From contig JAQBRT010000001.1 in the NCBI GenBank assembly GCA_028286345.1, positions 692,567 through 756,566 of the forward strand: a stretch of 64,000 nt of DNA, in the 5' to 3' direction. Source of the DNA: Candidatus Saccharimonadota bacterium (lineage in GTDB: Bacteria > Patescibacteriota > Saccharimonadia > Saccharimonadales > UBA4665). Shown here one piece after another: positions 21,996 to 27,550 of the stretch (the stretch's first letter is position 1; each line of letters begins with the position of its first letter). The notes below the pieces were generated by a model. It did no database searches. It was given only the letters and a program-made list of their open reading frames with translations, and was not told the DNA's origin. The position numbers and the translations under genes were made by a program.

Positions 21996-22070
21996 TCCGG
22001 GGTAGCGCAGCGGTAGCGCAGTTGACTGTTAATCAATTGGTCGCGGGTTCGAATCCCGCCCCCGGAGCCA
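21996..22070 (+). tRNA. tRNA-Asn(GTT)
   Basis: Acceptor TCCGGGG (21996-22002) pairs with CCCCGGA (22060-22066). The anticodon loop CTGTTAA has anticodon GTT at 22028-22030. The T-arm is GCGGG, TTCGAAT, CCCGC (22043-22059). Discriminator G and an encoded CCA end the gene at 22070. It is the left border of the cassette array, and its 3' end with the following hairpin is the apparent parent of the repeats. Confidence 0.97.
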
Positions 22071-22085
22071 CGAAAATTATGTTCT

Positions 22086-22111
22086 AAAAGACTTCTTCGG
22101 AAGTCTTTTTT
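22086..22111 (+). terminator. Terminator after tRNA-Asn (prototype of the array hairpin)
   Basis: Stem AAAAGACTTC (22086-22095), loop TTCG, GAAGTCTTTT (22100-22109), then T. Exact or near copies of this hairpin recur after array genes at 22412, 22957, 23420, 25111 and 27518. Confidence 0.93.
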
Positions 22112-22137
22112 CTTGTACAAAATGCTATCCTATAGTC

Positions 22138-22344
22138 ATGACACTAAAATATCGTATTATCACCGTCAGCTTATTGCTCTCCTTGCTGCTGGGGTTTGGC
22201 GGTTACGCTATTAAAAACGCTTATGTGACAATGATAGGTATCGCATTCTTAGCATTTAGTATTTCCTGTTGGGTGTTTGCTGATAAAAAAGATCCTAATC
22301 CTGTAGGAATTATTTTAGACGGTATACTCTTTGGCATTATTTAG
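22138..22344 (+). CDS. Two-helix mini membrane protein (paralogue A)
   Basis: A 68-aa protein with two transmembrane helices (about 9-26 and 31-49) and a short hydrophobic C-terminus ending DGILFGII. It is a clear paralogue of the gene at 25962: both start M-x-LKYRI, share GGYAIKN and FADK, and end in DGI-x-xGII. Function unknown. TATCCT ends 6 nt before the ATG and there is no SD. First gene of the cassette array. Confidence 0.75.
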   Translation: MTLKYRIITVSLLLSLLLGFGGYAIKNAYVTMIGIAFLAFSISCWVFADKKDPNPVGIILDGILFGII

Positions 22345-22374
22345 TTAAAGATGATCGTCTATTGCCAAACTTGA

Positions 22375-22436
22375 TTGCGCAGCTCGTCCAGCAGTGGGAG
22401 CCAAGATGCTTAAAAGACTTCTCCGGAAGTCTTTTT
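22375..22436 (+). repeat. Array repeat copy 1
   Basis: TTGCGCAGCTCG, then CAGTGGGAGCCAAGATG, then hairpin AAAAGACTTC/TCCG/GAAGTCTTTT (22412-22435). Also acts as terminator for the preceding gene. Confidence 0.85.
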
Positions 22437-22454
22437 GTTTGGTATAGTTAGCCT

Positions 22455-22904
22455 ATGAAAAATGATAGGAAATATCTAAAGATGGCATTAGAAAATGCCA
22501 GTCGTTCAGCAGCAGAAGGTAATTTTCCTGCTGGGGGCATTGTAGTTGTAGAGGATAGGGTCATTTCCTCTGCTATCAGCTCACCATATCCTGGATTATT
22601 GCACGCTGATTCAAAAGCTGTTACTGCAGCGTTTGAATCTGATACAGACCTAGGTAAAGCAACACTATACGTAACACTAGAGTCCTGCTTGATGTGTACG
22701 GGCGTCGCCTATTGGGCAGGTATTCGACGCATTGTCTATGCTATTGCAAAGGATCAAGTTGATCCAACCTATTACGAAACCGCCCAGCCTACAGCTGCAC
22801 TAATTGATGGCTTTAATGAGCGCCTAGAACGAGTACACCTTAGCGAGCTGCAGGATGAAGCCTTAACAATCGTTAGAGCCTGGGAAGAAGCTCAGAATCT
22901 GTAG
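22455..22904 (+). CDS. Cytidine/guanine deaminase-like protein with HAD instead of HAE
   Basis: A 149-aa protein of the CDA/TadA zinc deaminase fold. The Cys pair is in TLESCLMCTG (about 76-85) and the His ligand in LLHADSKAV (about 55-63). The residue expected to be the proton-shuttling Glu (HAE) is Asp, and the usual PC of PCxxC is SC. Zinc binding should be kept but catalysis may be altered. TATAGT ends 6 nt before the ATG. It is a single-gene cassette between repeat copies 1 and 2. It could be a nucleoside or base deaminase, or a non-catalytic homologue. Confidence 0.8.
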   Translation: MKNDRKYLKMALENASRSAAEGNFPAGGIVVVEDRVISSAISSPYPGLLHADSKAVTAAFESDTDLGKATLYVTLESCLMCTGVAYWAGIRRIVYAIAKDQVDPTYYETAQPTAALIDGFNERLERVHLSELQDEALTIVRAWEEAQNL

Positions 22905-22912
22905 GTAAATAG

Positions 22913-22981
22913 TTGCGAAGCTCGCCCAGTAGGGGGAGCCACGAGAATTATGATCTAAAAGACTTCTTCGGAAGTCTTTTT
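22913..22981 (+). repeat. Array repeat copy 2
   Basis: TTGCGAAGCTCG, then GGGGGAGCCACGA and ATTATG, very close to the tRNA-Asn 3' flank (GGAGCCACGA, ATTATG), then the hairpin at 22957-22980. Best match to the tRNA-Asn copy. Confidence 0.9.
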
Positions 22982-22989
22982 GCTTATGC

Positions 22990-23018
22990 TTGCATATGCT
23001 TTTAGTAAGCCATATATT
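22990..23018 (+). promoter_or_regulatory. Promoter for the 105-aa gene
   Basis: TTGCAT (22990-22995), 17-nt spacer, TATATT (23013-23018). The -35 lies in the CTTATGCTTGC tract that follows repeat copies 2, 3 and 9. Confidence 0.7.
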
Positions 23019-23039
23019 TACACAACAAAGGAGATGATT

Positions 23040-23357
23040 ATGTCAGACCAAGTCGGGGAGTTTATGAGAAGGGTTGATTTCGGTTTGGTCAGGGCAACGA
23101 CCGAGAGTATGGCCTGCGTTAATCCAGTTGAAGGTTATGCCGTTATTGAAGGCGCAAGATACGCCATCGAGACTTATGCAAAGCAAGCCGAAGCCGGTAA
23201 GCCTACTGATTTTCATTCCATTGTTCGCGAAACAAGAGATATGCTTGATACTTATGAGCTAGATGGAGATCCCTGGAAGTGCTCGGATGAATTTAACCTT
23301 GGAGTAGCAATGGGTATTTATCTAGCACGTCGGACTGACGGTAAGCCGCGCATTTAG
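23040..23357 (+). CDS. Hypothetical cassette protein (105 aa)
   Basis: Not recognised. It is a soluble, mostly helical protein (MSDQVGEFMRRVDFGLVRAT at the start, GVAMGIYLARR near the end) with no signal peptide. AAGGAG (23028-23033) is 6 nt before the chosen ATG, so upstream in-frame starts are excluded. It has a sigma70-like promoter supplied partly by the flanking repeat. Single-gene cassette between repeats 2 and 3. Confidence 0.7.
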   Translation: MSDQVGEFMRRVDFGLVRATTESMACVNPVEGYAVIEGARYAIETYAKQAEAGKPTDFHSIVRETRDMLDTYELDGDPWKCSDEFNLGVAMGIYLARRTDGKPRI

Positions 23358-23377
23358 GCAGCGCATCTAAATCAAAG

Positions 23378-23445
23378 TTGCGAAGCTCGTCTACTGGTGG
23401 GAGCTATGATACTAATGCTAAAAGACTTCTTCGGAAGTCTTTTTT
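23378..23445 (+). repeat. Array repeat copy 3
   Basis: TTGCGAAGCTCG, TGGTGGGAGC, then hairpin AAAAGACTTC/TTCG/GAAGTCTTTT at 23420-23443. Confidence 0.9.
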
Positions 23446-23452
23446 CTTATGC

Positions 23453-23481
23453 TTGCTCTAATCTGTGAAAAAGTATATTGT
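23453..23481 (+). promoter_or_regulatory. Promoter for the phosphatase cassette
   Basis: TTGCTC (23453-23458), 17-nt spacer, TATTGT (23476-23481). The AAGGA SD at 23492 follows. Confidence 0.6.
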
Positions 23482-23503
23482 TCTATAAAATAAGGATTTT
23501 GGT

Positions 23504-23995
23504 ATGCAAGCACATGAAATTTTTCTCGTACGTCACGGAGCTTATGACTATGGTACAGGTAGCTTAAATGATAAAGGCAGGGAGCAATCTCGTGCAGCAC
23601 TTCGCGAGTTAGTAGCTTTAGGAGCTGGCAGCCTAGCCTTACTATTAAGTTCTGACGCACCTCGAGCCATTGAAACTTCACGGATTATCGCAGAAGGTAC
23701 TGGAGCAGAGGTTGTGCCGAGCAAAAGAATGCGCTTATCAGCACTGGAGCCAGATGGAGTCGAGAGCCTAGACGAATGCATTCAACAGTCGCTTAATGAG
23801 TGCGGACTGCTTGTGCCAGAATCACTCGTAGTAGTCGCGCATGAGCCCCTCTTGCAGACTGCTGCATATAAATCATGGGCAAATAAACCACATTTTGATA
23901 ATGGTGCCGTGTTAAGATACGAACCAGGTTCATGGGAGAATTTAGCGTTCCTGCCCGACTTTGCCAAAATGATTGAATCCCGCATGCATGAATAA
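23504..23995 (+). CDS. Histidine phosphatase (SixA-like)
   Basis: A 163-aa member of the phosphoglycerate-mutase-like histidine phosphatase superfamily. The catalytic RHG is at residues 10-12 in IFLVRHGAYDYG and the second catalytic His in VVVAHEPLLQTAA (about 110-122). Short length and SSDAPRAIETSRI match the SixA branch, which removes phosphate from phosphohistidine or small molecules. SD AAGGA 8 nt upstream. It shares a cassette with the next gene: no repeat lies in the 21-bp gap between them. Confidence 0.85.
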   Translation: MQAHEIFLVRHGAYDYGTGSLNDKGREQSRAALRELVALGAGSLALLLSSDAPRAIETSRIIAEGTGAEVVPSKRMRLSALEPDGVESLDECIQQSLNECGLLVPESLVVVAHEPLLQTAAYKSWANKPHFDNGAVLRYEPGSWENLAFLPDFAKMIESRMHE

Positions 23996-24016
23996 ACTAT
24001 CCTAGGAGGACATAAT

Positions 24017-24460
24017 ATGAGCGCAGAGATTACTACAGGAACCGATTCTGATATCGCAGCCGATGCAGCACACCTTGCTGCTGAAATACTTGTTGAAACT
24101 GGCTCAACTACAAGCGAGGCTTTTACCTATGGCGTGAAAGCAGCGCGCTATGGAGCAGAAGTACTCCTAGTTGCTTTGCGTGAGATGGAAGCTGTTTCTG
24201 GCGATTTAGACCAGGAAGCATTTAAAGATGCCCTGCAAAAAGTTGATGCACAAGTATTACCATTAGGTCATTTGGTCGGCGCGGCAAGACTTGGCGAAGA
24301 AATGCTACGACACTCGCCTAGCGAACTAGTTGATCTTCAAGAATCTAATGAACCTCTAGCAGACTTATTAAATAGACTGGCGGATAACCCGACGTCCGGT
24401 ATTACTGAACAGTTGCGTGCAGCAATAATTGCAGGCAGAGCCGAAACACCTAGCGAGTAA
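24017..24460 (+). CDS. Hypothetical helical protein (147 aa)
   Basis: Not recognised. All-helical, acidic and Ala/Leu/Glu-rich (DAAHLAAEILVETG, YGAEVLLVALREME) with no membrane segment. A strong SD (AGGAGG, 24004-24009) lies 7 nt before the ATG. It is the second gene of a two-gene cassette with the histidine phosphatase, so a functional link is possible. Confidence 0.7.
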   Translation: MSAEITTGTDSDIAADAAHLAAEILVETGSTTSEAFTYGVKAARYGAEVLLVALREMEAVSGDLDQEAFKDALQKVDAQVLPLGHLVGAARLGEEMLRHSPSELVDLQESNEPLADLLNRLADNPTSGITEQLRAAIIAGRAETPSE

Positions 24461-24463
24461 TTC

Positions 24464-24528
24464 CTAATCTCGTCTATTAGCAGGAGCCAAGATGGTTACA
24501 TTTAAAAGACTTGTACGGAGATCTTTTT
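24464..24528 (+). repeat. Array repeat copy 4 (degenerate)
   Basis: TAATCTCGTC, AGCAGGAGCCAAGATG, then a decayed hairpin (AAAAGA 24504-24509 pairs with TCTTTT 24522-24527). Confidence 0.75.
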
Positions 24529-24547
24529 GTTTTGTTATACTCAAGGC

Positions 24548-25063
24548 ATGAAACTTATTATGCAACCTGCTATTAGCCTTGATGGCTTTATTGCTAAGCT
24601 TGATGGCGATAGCGAAAGTTGGGTTAATCAAGCCGACGAGGCACGCTATCAGCAGGTTGTGCGTGATGCTGGTGCCGTTATTGTAGGTCGCACGACCTAT
24701 GAACAATACAAGACAGACTTTGATAGTTATGATGATGTAGTCGTCTTCGTATGCACAAACAACAAAGAATTCACGGATACCTCTAACGTAAAGCACCTGT
24801 CAGGTAACGCTATTGAAATCGTTGACGCTATAAAAAGCAACCATTCCTTTAACGAGGTAATAGTATGCGGAGGAGGCGAAGTTAACGGCATGCTGGCCGA
24901 TGCTGGCTTGGTAGATGAGATTGTTATTAGCGTGCAGTCCGCGGTACTAGGCGAGGGTATACCATTATTTGGAATCTATAAGCCGCGACTCAATCTTGAG
25001 CTCATTTCTGTTGATCAACAAATTCCAGGTGTAGTTCAAAATCACTATCTTGTTCGTAACTAG
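24548..25063 (+). CDS. RibD C-terminal/DHFR-like reductase
   Basis: A 171-aa protein of the dihydrofolate-reductase-like fold. It opens MKLIMQPAISLDGFIA, has GAVIVGRTTYEQY (about 41-53), and a nucleotide-binding EVIVCGGGEVNGMLADAGLVDE-type segment (about 101-122). Such stand-alone RibD_C proteins reduce pterin- or pyrimidine-like substrates with NADPH. ATG at 24548 was chosen because TATACT ends 6 nt before it. Single-gene cassette. Confidence 0.85.
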   Translation: MKLIMQPAISLDGFIAKLDGDSESWVNQADEARYQQVVRDAGAVIVGRTTYEQYKTDFDSYDDVVVFVCTNNKEFTDTSNVKHLSGNAIEIVDAIKSNHSFNEVIVCGGGEVNGMLADAGLVDEIVISVQSAVLGEGIPLFGIYKPRLNLELISVDQQIPGVVQNHYLVRN

Positions 25064-25068
25064 GAAAG

Positions 25069-25135
25069 TTGTGAAGCTCGTCGCTTAGGGAAGCCAAAAT
25101 GCTAATGCTTAAAAGACTTCTTCGGAGGTATTTTT
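25069..25135 (+). repeat. Array repeat copy 5
   Basis: TTGTGAAGCTCGTCG, GGGAAGCCAAAATG, then hairpin AAAAGACTTC/TTCG/GAGGTATTTT (25111-25134, two changes from the prototype). Confidence 0.85.
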
Positions 25136-25183
25136 GTTTTACCACATGTTAGCCACAATTCGTAAACAATGCTACAGTACCAA

Positions 25184-25343
25184 GATTATCGTAGAGGTGC
25201 TACCTCCGATAGTACATTGACAGAGTAGAGACGATCAGTCGTGCATACAAACCTACGTGTGGGCATATGTTTATATGTGCGACTGATAGTAAATCACCCA
25301 ACCTAAAAGTACCCGTCACCGACATCGAGAGATTGGACAAGTC
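25184..25343 (+). ncRNA. Structured 5' leader of the 138-aa gene
   Basis: TACAGT (25173-25178) predicts transcription from about 25184. Hairpin 1 pairs 25187-25198 with 25202-25211 (TATCG/CGATA and GAGGT/ACCTC). Hairpin 2 pairs 25235-25252 with 25269-25286, 17 bp with one mismatch. Between them lies GACAGAGTAGAGA, which is complementary to 25822-25834 behind the gene. It could be a cis-regulatory RNA or part of a bounded mobile unit. I see no coding ORF in it. Confidence 0.55.
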
Positions 25344-25760
25344 ATGCAGCAAGGAATTGTAATTGGATCAGTTCCAGCAATGCACTACCGTCCGTTCGCT
25401 GGTCGCTCTCCCTTAAAAGTGGACGCAGAAACTGCGCTGCTCATCCGGGAAGCGGTCCATGAACTGCTTGGCAGCCACCAGGACATCGTTGATGCCTTCG
25501 TTGGGGCTTTTCAGCTCACTGGAGTTAACCCTGACGACATCCGATTTGTGTTCTGGTCTTGGCCGGCGCTACAGACTGTTGCAAAGCCGCAACGAGCACA
25601 GCTCCAAGCTGAGCCTTTTCCGGCAATTTTCTCATTTGCCGAGAAAGATGAAATCGCACAAATTCATCCGTGCTCTGTGTTCAGAAATGCCGTCCATTAC
25701 GTTTCAAGCCGAGACAGAAAGACCTGCGATAAGGTGGACTGGGGAAATCTACCGTACTAA
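25344..25760 (+). CDS. Hypothetical cassette protein (138 aa)
   Basis: Not recognised. Helical N-terminal half (ALLIREAVHELLGSHQDIVD, about 33-52) and an aromatic-rich middle (DIRFVFWSWPALQ). Codon use looks genuinely coding, and bases differ from the AT-richer cassettes around it. SD is weak. It has a long structured leader and a strong hairpin after its stop (about 25770-25810), unlike its neighbours, so it may be a separate insertion within the array. A second ORF in another frame (25459-25983) overlaps it; I consider that one spurious. Confidence 0.6.
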   Translation: MQQGIVIGSVPAMHYRPFAGRSPLKVDAETALLIREAVHELLGSHQDIVDAFVGAFQLTGVNPDDIRFVFWSWPALQTVAKPQRAQLQAEPFPAIFSFAEKDEIAQIHPCSVFRNAVHYVSSRDRKTCDKVDWGNLPY

Positions 25761-25765
25761 AGAAG

Positions 25766-25812
25766 GGCCGGAAGCCTCGTTTGATCTTCGGATTGATCGA
25801 GGCTGCCGCGCC
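25766..25812 (+). terminator. Long hairpin after the 138-aa gene
   Basis: GAAGCCTCG pairs with CGAGGCTGCC-side sequence around a TTCG tetraloop (GCCTCG ... GATC-TTCG-GAT ... CGAGGC). There is no T run, so it may be an RNA-stabilising or processing element rather than a classical terminator. Confidence 0.5.
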
Positions 25813-25862
25813 CCACCTTCATCTCTACTCTGTCCTCAATCCTCGCATAGTTGCCTGAAAAT

Positions 25863-25926
25863 TTGCGAAGCTCGCCCAGTAGCCGGAGCCAAACATAATC
25901 ACTTTGCGCCGACAAAGTGTTTTTGC
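25863..25926 (+). repeat. Array repeat copy 6 (different hairpin)
   Basis: TTGCGAAGCTCGCCCAGTAG then GGAGCCAAACATAATC, but the terminator is a different stem: CACTTTG (25900-25906) with CAAAGTG (25913-25919), followed by TTTTT. Confidence 0.85.
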
Positions 25927-25961
25927 TTTATTGAGATCCTTGTTTGCGGTATTGTTAGTTT

Positions 25962-26168
25962 ATGTCGCTCAAATATCGCATAGTTATCTCTGGCTTATCG
26001 CTTTCAGTTCTTTTAGGGCTGGGAGGTTATGCAATTAAGAATCCTTTTGTTATGATCGCTGGCATTGTCTTTTTAGCTTTCAGTTTGGGGTGTTTATTTT
26101 TTGCGGACAAGCAGGAAAAGAGAGCCTATGCCATTATCATTGATGGAATATTCTGGGGCATTATTTAA
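25962..26168 (+). CDS. Two-helix mini membrane protein (paralogue B)
   Basis: 68 aa, the same length and layout as the protein at 22138: start M-x-LKYRI, GGYAIKN, a second helix, FADK, and an end in DGI-x-xGII. Two transmembrane helices, no known domain. TATTGT (25950-25955) ends 6 nt before the ATG. Each paralogue sits directly behind a repeat copy, so this looks like a duplicated and diverged cassette. Topology suggests a very short periplasmic or external turn; function unknown. Confidence 0.75.
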   Translation: MSLKYRIVISGLSLSVLLGLGGYAIKNPFVMIAGIVFLAFSLGCLFFADKQEKRAYAIIIDGIFWGII

Positions 26169-26202
26169 CATGCGCAATGTGCTCGACTCTACGGTATAGT
26201 CC

Positions 26203-26257
26203 CGAAGCTCGTCCACTAGAGGAGTGTGGCAGAAAAGACTGCACAGTCACCTTTTTA
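26203..26257 (+). repeat. Array repeat copy 7 (degenerate)
   Basis: CGAAGCTCGTCCACTAG then GGAGTGTG; weak hairpin GACT (26237-26240)/AGTC (26245-26248) with a T run. Confidence 0.7.
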
Positions 26258-26303
26258 TTGCTACTATACTGCTACGATTAAAGGTAATCCTGGAGGAACT
26301 ATT

Positions 26304-26762
26304 ATGAAGCAAATTACACCTAATCTATGGTTCGATGGTAAGGCTCAGGAGGCAGTCGATTTTTACCTCTCAGTGTTCCCAGACAGTAAGATAATCTCCA
26401 CCGTTTACTACCCAAACAGCGCAGAACAAGGCTTGGCTGACTTCCAGCTCGATATGGCAGGCAAGGTGCTGTCAATAGAATTTGAGCTCAGTGGCAACCG
26501 CTTTGTGGCTATAAATGCTGGCCCGGAATTTAAGTTCAACGAATCTGTATCGTTTTCCATCCCTTGTGAAGACCAAGCAGAAATCGATTACTACTGGGAG
26601 AAACTGTCAAAAGTGCCAGAGTCCGAGCAGTGCGGTTGGTGCAAAGACCAATACGGCCTCAGCTGGCAGATTGTACCCAAAAATATGGATGAACTAATGC
26701 AGCACCCAAACGCTTTTGCTAACATGATGCAAATGCACAAAATTGTTATTGCCGATTTTTAA
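26304..26762 (+). CDS. PhnB-like VOC/glyoxalase-fold protein
   Basis: A 152-aa protein of the 3-demethylubiquinone-9 methyltransferase-like (PhnB/YjdN) branch of the VOC superfamily. It opens ITPNLWFDGKAQEAVDFYLS, and has FVAINAGPEFKFNESVSF (about 68-85) and CGWCKDQYGLSWQIVP near the end. Such proteins bind a metal and a small substrate; the precise reaction is usually unknown. GGAGG lies 9 nt before the ATG. TATACT at about 26264-26269 is the probable -10. Confidence 0.88.
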   Translation: MKQITPNLWFDGKAQEAVDFYLSVFPDSKIISTVYYPNSAEQGLADFQLDMAGKVLSIEFELSGNRFVAINAGPEFKFNESVSFSIPCEDQAEIDYYWEKLSKVPESEQCGWCKDQYGLSWQIVPKNMDELMQHPNAFANMMQMHKIVIADF

Positions 26763-26766
26763 CACA

Positions 26767-26803
26767 TTGCAGCTCGTAGTTCGAATCCAGCAGGGGAGAG
26801 TCA
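26767..26803 (+). repeat. Array repeat copy 8 with an intact tRNA T-loop
   Basis: TTGCAGCTCG, then TAGTTCGAATCCAGCAGGGG and AGAGTCA. GTTCGAATC is a canonical T-loop, but the T-stem no longer pairs. No terminator hairpin follows. Confidence 0.75.
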
Positions 26804-26849
26804 AGCATAAGCAATTTCTAAAGTAACCCCGCCGTGATATTTTGTCTTC

Positions 26850-27455
26850 ATGTCTAAACCAGAAATATTACTGCTCGGTGGCGCTCCTGGCAGCGGGAAG
26901 TCCACCATGGCCCAACTCGTGGTAGAAAAAAATACACCTCAGGGTGTACGCCACTTATCTATTGGTGACCTAAAACGTGACATTGTAGCCGGTAAAGTTC
27001 CGTCGGCCTACGCAGAGATGCTGCAACAAAGAGAGCACCCTGATCGCAAAACAGGTGCAGCGCCCAGCGAAGCTATGACAGGCATAATGGAAGAATTTAT
27101 TCTTGCTAGCCCGGAAAGCCTGACGATTGTAGACGGCTTCCCACGCTACATGGATCGTGTAGCACCATTTAAGGCATCCATGGAACATATTGGCGCACGA
27201 GTACTCGCACTATGCGTCGTAACGGTCGATGAAGCAGTTCTGATTAGCCGCCTTACCCAGCGGGAGGAACGATCTGGCCAAAAAATAAAAGATCCTTTAG
27301 AACGCTTAGCTGACCATAGGGATAATATTGTACCAACCTTAGAGCTTCTCGCTGAAGACTATCCATATTACGAACTGGATGGTTCGCTTCCTTTAGACGA
27401 TAATGCGACCCGTTTAATAGAAATCTACACCCAAACAGCTCAGCAAAGTATTTAA
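26850..27455 (+). CDS. Adenylate-kinase-like P-loop NTPase
   Basis: A 201-aa nucleoside-monophosphate-kinase-fold protein. Walker A GGAPGSGKSTMAQL (10-23), IVDGFPRYMDRV (about 90-101, the FPR substrate motif of adenylate kinases) and the ISRLTQREERSGQ LID-type segment (about 133-145) are present. NMP kinase activity is plausible, but it is probably not the housekeeping Adk. TATTTT ends 6 nt before the ATG. Single-gene cassette. Confidence 0.85.
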   Translation: MSKPEILLLGGAPGSGKSTMAQLVVEKNTPQGVRHLSIGDLKRDIVAGKVPSAYAEMLQQREHPDRKTGAAPSEAMTGIMEEFILASPESLTIVDGFPRYMDRVAPFKASMEHIGARVLALCVVTVDEAVLISRLTQREERSGQKIKDPLERLADHRDNIVPTLELLAEDYPYYELDGSLPLDDNATRLIEIYTQTAQQSI

Positions 27456-27492
27456 AAGCCACGTTTTGTTGACTGGCAAACTGAACTGAACG

Positions 27493-27545
27493 TTGCAGAG
27501 CCAAGGCGTTTATGCCTAAAAGACTTCTTTGGAAGTCTTTTTTCT
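27493..27545 (+). repeat. Array repeat copy 9 (short)
   Basis: TTGCAGAGCCAAGG joins the two conserved boxes directly, then hairpin AAAAGACTTC/TTTG/GAAGTCTTTT at 27518-27541, then CTTATGCTTGC. Confidence 0.85.
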
Positions 27546-27550
27546 TATGC

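Follow-up and report, generated by a model that had tools for sequence, protein, structure and literature searches.

The window, by which we mean the whole stretch of 64,000 nt analysed here, contains a cassette array (21996-27550) that begins at a tRNA-Asn gene. Its cassettes end in a repeat of about 25 nt, GAAGCTCGCCCAGTAGGGGGAGCCA-like and resembling the 3′ part of this tRNA, often with a terminator-like hairpin after it. The cargo includes deaminase, histidine phosphatase, RibD-C/DHFR-like, glyoxalase/3-dmu-9_3-mt-like and adenylate-kinase-like proteins. This repeat also occurs in another small array of the genome (L029; G000:C2:101183-101543, minus strand), in which ARAGORN found no tRNA; the genome's only match to the recombinase family PF00589 is at C2:36990. 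One cassette of the window array, carried whole between two array repeats, holds an orphan gene with a structured leader, bracketed by an inverted repeat whose arms we call P1 (Table 1).

Table 1. Features of the window copy, in window coordinates.
Feature	Position	Strand	Basis or remark
Array repeat, left cassette border	25073-25096	+	
Sigma70-like promoter	-35 TAGCCA 25150-25155, 17-nt spacer, -10 TACAGT 25173-25178	+	Consensus match, predicted
Hairpin 1, inferred RNA 5′ end	25187-25211	+	TATCG-ua-GAGG...CCTC-CGATA, 2-nt bulge
Linker GTACAT, hairpin 1 to P1	25212-25217	+	Conserved in the family
P1 5′ strand, TGACAGAGTAGAGACGA	about 25218-25234	+	Inverted repeat and family covariation
Hairpin 2	about 25234-25287	+	Predicted fold
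138-aa orphan ORF inside P1	25344-25760	+	ATG at 25344
Hairpin 3, behind stop codon	25765-25813	+	Predicted fold
P1 3′ strand, TCATCTCTACTCTGTC	25819-25834	+	Inverted repeat and family covariation
Array repeat, right cassette border	25867-25891	+	Occupies the place after P1 where relatives have a hammerhead

A preliminary description of this locus had reported two hairpins (25187-25211 and 25235-25286), a large hairpin after the stop codon and a perfect 13-bp inverted repeat bracketing the gene, and all of these were found where it had put them. The repeat as a whole pairs 15 of 16 nt between 25219-25234 and 25819-25834, 584 nt apart, with the perfect 13-mer (25219/25822) inside it. The predicted leader also exists, although its length, given before as 160 nt, comes to about 157 nt from the inferred start near 25187 to the ATG. 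The -10 box ends 8 nt upstream of hairpin 1. The remark that no other cassette looks like this one agrees with the family models described below, which match the window once only. No T run follows hairpin 3, and a terminator was set aside.

By itself the window repeat is weak evidence, because 0.67 perfect 13-bp inverted repeats at 100-700 nt spacing are expected over the 64 kb and one was seen; in dinucleotide shuffles of the 678-nt region a perfect 13-bp repeat arose in 6 of 3000. We judge it real because relatives show the same pairing. Folding of the whole segment gave z -6.1 on the plus strand and -5.05 on the minus strand, with 0 of 100 shuffles equally stable; the interior, once P1 and hairpin 2 were removed, gave -3.5, and the 138-aa ORF alone -2.7. 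An Rfam covariance-model search of the segment, including ROOL, GOLLD and OLE, gave no match above chance, and tmRNA was set aside with no match over the segment.

The coding signal of the 138-aa ORF is moderate, with a coding-type base periodicity (GC1/2/3 of.64/.41/.50) and a codon score of 0.215, lower than the host mean of 0.53. No convincing relative was found in viral contigs, phages, plasmids, Pfam, PHROGs or PDB, the weak family matches looking unrelated, and none of 147 pattern matches in genome contigs was confirmed. At the DNA level, no homology was found in phages and plasmids. Single-sequence structure prediction of the protein was uninformative (pLDDT 39).

The starting point for the family was a weak blastn comparison with 98 related genomes, whose scattered matches included several on one leader stretch. 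Units with the same layout as the window unit and different contents were found in G042, G016, G038, G029 and G001. Two covariance models were used: R1, comprising hairpin 1 and the 5′ arm, and R2, built from 34 members. At E≤1, R1 matched 106 of the order's 392 genomes, many of these weak matches being chance; R2 matched 56 of the 392 Saccharimonadales genomes at E≤0.01. R2 places per genome reach a maximum of 13 (G001), with 8 in G038, 8 in G044 and 7 in G261; the window's own genome has three, one in the window and the others at C2:775912 and C2:776876. The window copy, a seed of both models, scored E 2.2e-9 with R1 and 2.0e-5 with R2. Among 379 genomes sampled across the phylum, R1 matched three at E≤0.01, all in Saccharimonadales, and the named records confirmed as genuine members are all Candidatus Saccharibacteria. 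The family appears restricted to the order Saccharimonadales, where alone it was found.

Of 73 distinct R1 places inspected, 19 were dropped, most for want of a convincing 3′ partner, and 54 with a partner were kept; one unit added from elsewhere gave 55. One of the 19, G261:C4:324149, was left out despite a good partner. Three subtypes are distinguished by P1 sequence: A (TTGACAGAGTAG, that of the window copy), B (TTGACAAGCAGAC) and C (AACAAG...CTCTGTT). Types A and B make up 46 units, and type C, with a different 3′ domain, makes up 9. Relatives elsewhere stand between ordinary genes. The pattern TTGACAGAGTAGAGAC, with one mismatch allowed, occurs at 7 places in the 392 genomes, four of which (L032, L033, L035, L036) were judged chance; the exact motif has 15 matches in wider genome contigs, and 11 of these were inspected, 2 being real and 9 chance. 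In viral contigs the family ends were not found apart from a single match (L104), also judged chance.

Across the 46 A/B relatives the P1 arms co-vary strongly. With the register shifted 1-4 nt to fit in 11 of the 46 units, 85.9% of P1 cells are paired against 62.8% after shuffling, percentages that are inflated because a 3′ partner was required for a unit to enter the set of 55. Doubly changed cells number 208 against 78.9 (sd 8.8) in shuffles, a count reached in 0 of 500, and both sides have changed at 12 pairs of the 15-bp helix. Slid registers pair at 31-44% only. When each unit's best own helix was compared with those formed with the downstream DNA of all 54 other members, it exceeded every one in 24 of 55 cases, and in 31 it stood among the best 5%. 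The window copy comes third in this comparison, since its P1 sequence also occurs in other units. P1 is present in the minimum-energy fold of every one of the 40 units no longer than 1100 nt. Few P1 pairs are G-U (about 20 of 593 paired cells, after a partner search that scored G-U low), and scarce G-U pairs are also expected from a DNA-level repeat.

The -10 box lies 7-9 nt before hairpin 1 in 50 of the 55 members, so hairpin 1 should be the 5′ terminus of the RNA. In 34 aligned units this hairpin is 97.1% paired, with both bases substituted in 3 of 8 pairs and the 2-nt bulge conserved, and the AC-N-TT linker is nearly invariant. The 75 nt after P1 (hairpin 2) fold with a mean z of -4.94 (40 of 46 below -2; window copy -3.32) and the 80 nt before the P1 3′ arm (hairpin 3) with a mean z of -2.10 (25 of 46 below -2; window copy -3.68). 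The middle of the unit, taken as a folding control, gave a mean z of -0.34, with 4 of 46 below -2.

Of the 46 A/B units, 16 have a strict hammerhead core in the 110 nt that follow P1, against 0.007 expected per stretch; the other 30 have none. Rfam found a Hammerhead_3 match directly after P1 at L086 (E 8.9e-8), 8 further hammerheads in 14 loci and 2 in 15 loci, and in the window's own genome one upstream of unit G000b (E 0.0016), every Rfam score being below the Rfam cut-off of 48.5 bits. Where stem III can be placed it begins 0-7 nt past P1, so that cleavage would leave the clamp at the RNA end. The window copy has no strict core in the 110 nt after P1 and no Rfam hammerhead match, and its cassette repeat starts about 32 nt after P1. 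Type A units without a hammerhead (such as L027, L071 and L084, all minus strand) often have another stem immediately after P1, with an internal loop, e.g., CTTAACC...GGTTAAG.

The enclosed ORFs are mostly unrelated, about 34-350 aa long, with Shine-Dalgarno sites, and some units have several; two members have no ORF under the selection rules used. The ORFs were picked mechanically, and G044b_1, G126_1, G027b_2 and G149 are probably wrong frames. A membrane-like stretch is present in 32 of 73. Scanning of 41 of the 73 yielded no PHROGs match and only weak or low-complexity Pfam/NCBIfam matches. ORFs recur between units in G048/G061 and in G001d/G001f. Compared with synonymous shuffles, the enclosed ORFs show slightly more folding (mean z -0.95 vs -0.39 for flanking ORFs). 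No reverse transcriptase was seen among them, and a retron or group II intron was set aside.

Two enclosed ORFs encode Band_7/SPFH proteins. One was searched: all 351 of its phage matches are to actinophages and all 4 plasmid matches are actinobacterial. Nearly all other enclosed ORFs have no phage match. A G038 unit with a hammerhead at its end (E 0.0004) encodes an actinobacterial-like RNA polymerase alpha-CTD (RNA_pol_A_CTD, E 2.5e-15), whose identity is 32/59 to chain 7vpd and 30/59 to 10mi (presumably Streptomyces and Mycobacterium chains, respectively), vs 22/51 to the carrier's own RpoA. This unit was missed by R1 and R2. Folding predicts that its ends, too, are paired and that the ribosome site and start codon lie within the paired region. 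Two alpha-CTD-like genes (L150 7097-7640 in G038 and L158 1340-1725 in G001) share one leader, GTTGCACCGAGTGC...AAGTACGC.C.CACAATTTAGG, which is unlike hairpin 1.

In 50 of 53 units the enclosed ORFs have a higher GC3 than the flanking genes (mean difference +0.19, p 9e-10), and this GC3 also correlates with the GC of the carrier (Spearman 0.59). Codon choice within GC and AT classes, compared with a single actinobacterial reference, Arthrobacter, has a mean score of -0.057 vs -0.160 for flanking ORFs (p 1e-14), and scores are positive for 13 of 58 enclosed ORFs vs 4 of 176 flanking ones. The codon use of enclosed ORFs is a shift toward actinobacteria, not identity. The window ORF shows little GC3 shift (0.50 vs 0.56 for host long ORFs), and its codon score of -0.082 is still on the Saccharibacterial side.

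We propose that the unit produces an end-clamped, long-lived mRNA whose ORF is translated to an accessory, probably host-directed protein, a reading to which we give a probability of roughly 0.7. Transcription would begin at hairpin 1, and the RNA ends would pair as P1 with hairpins 2 and 3 alongside, so that the ORF would lie in a structured ring closed by a base-paired neck. Many relatives have a putative type III hammerhead immediately 3′ of P1, where cleavage would leave the RNA with a clean 3′ end; the window copy would work as a clamped mRNA with no recognisable ribozyme. Comparison among members establishes the pairing, hairpins, promoter position and hammerheads for the family at the level of sequence. 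We infer further that the clamp and hairpins block exonucleases, making the mRNA long-lived, that the ORFs are translated, and that the products are accessory proteins, probably aimed at the actinobacterial host of Saccharibacteria. Episymbiotic Saccharibacteria use actinobacterial hosts, and phages touching both have been predicted, according to PMC10746230.

The preliminary description had offered two readings of the locus, a large RNA with paired ends and the ORF inside it, or a mobile unit sitting within the array. The former is strongly supported by the covariation of P1, the fixed distance from promoter to hairpin 1 and the hammerheads in relatives. The latter, generalised to a mobile DNA element with inverted repeats at its termini, either MITE-like or a transposon with cargo, would explain the inverted repeat, the rarity of G-U pairs and the occurrence of numerous copies at separate sites, each with its own cargo, but we give it very little credence: the copies share only the design of their ends and their repeat sequences are diverse, the promoter and hairpin 1 are fixed outside the repeat with the ribozyme beyond it, no target-site duplication adjoins the repeat ends (ACATT left, CTCAA right), and no separate copy of the window unit with other flanks was found in its genome, related genomes, phages or plasmids. 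It is also unlikely that the family is a structural, mainly non-coding large RNA with a closing helix, in which the ORF is incidental. The stability of the whole segment (z -6.1), the window ORF without a homologue, the two members lacking an ORF and the slight structure of ORFs would suit such an RNA. Against it, most members have Shine-Dalgarno ORFs, several in some units, Band_7 and RNA_pol_A_CTD proteins are encoded, two pairs of units have recurring ORFs, the contents are unrelated with conservation limited to the ends, and Rfam has no match.

Another reading keeps the RNA anatomy of the clamped mRNA and changes the role of the protein: actinophage-type genes in a stable mRNA frame would be used inside the Saccharibacterium itself, e.g., against phages, and the foreign codons would be a trace of origin. 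We hold this as a tentative alternative that deserves serious weight while falling short of even odds. The Band_7 matches (351/351 to phages of actinobacteria and 4/4 to their plasmids) favor it, as does the finding that spacers of actinobacteria target some of the phages predicted for Saccharibacteria (PMC10746230), whereas nearly all the other ORFs are without a phage match and the search of viral contigs for the family ends gave one chance match. Doubtful, and in our estimate improbable, is an extension of the clamped-mRNA reading in which Saccharibacteria send clamped, ribozyme-trimmed mRNAs into the host actinobacterium, where they would be translated, their codon use being close to that of the host, and the proteins would join the host machinery, as an alpha-CTD look-alike for host RNA polymerase and as band-7 membrane proteins shared with host phages.

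Several known systems resemble parts of the clamped mRNA. ROOL, GOLLD and OLE are RNAs of several hundred nt, highly folded, with ends joined by a helix; the RNA predicted for the window copy would likewise be large, folded and paired at its ends, with no Rfam match, and we know of no varied ORFs enclosed by those RNAs. Tornado, an engineered system for circular RNA expression, combines paired ends with self-cleaving ribozymes, whereas in the clamped family no ribozyme is seen at the 5′ end, the inferred transcription start. As with integron-like gene cassettes, the cassette that carries the window copy has an array repeat at either end; in contrast, relatives elsewhere have ordinary genes on both sides, and the array repeat is similar to the 3′ part of tRNA-Asn. 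The core CUGANGA...CGAAA and stems I-III of the type III hammerhead (RF00008) are also seen in relatives after P1, although there the ribozyme would be only the 3′ trimming part, and the window copy is without one. We call the architecture new because its parts are known but, to our knowledge, no mRNA class has its two ends joined by a covarying clamp. The open-access literature searched yielded no published description of hammerheads or clamped RNAs of Saccharibacteria or Patescibacteria, and the clamped-mRNA family is apparently undescribed so far. If the proposal is true, covarying end clamps, often followed by a hammerhead, would add a new design to the known bacterial messages and provide a natural counterpart of engineers' RNA stabilisation. 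It would offer a testable route into the influence of Saccharibacteria on their hosts, because the family is seen only in an epibiotic order and its few recognisable products lean toward host types, and some bacterial hammerheads would gain a setting and maybe a role. Bacterial hammerheads reported before number in the hundreds, many of them close to integrase genes that group with prophages (PMC3088659).

Type C units have a conserved 3′ domain of their own, TTGAGTGCA-TTTT-TGCTCTC within CCAGG...CCTGG stems, seen at L151 (about 4110-4030 and 2912-2830), L141 (2140) and L068, which is possibly another ribozyme. At L141 a hammerhead core follows this domain. The type C proteins of L150 (8406-8894), L151 (4125-4643) and G048e are otherwise different but have a C-terminal motif in common, AR..GN.EQAREAA.LYPGDF(I/M).
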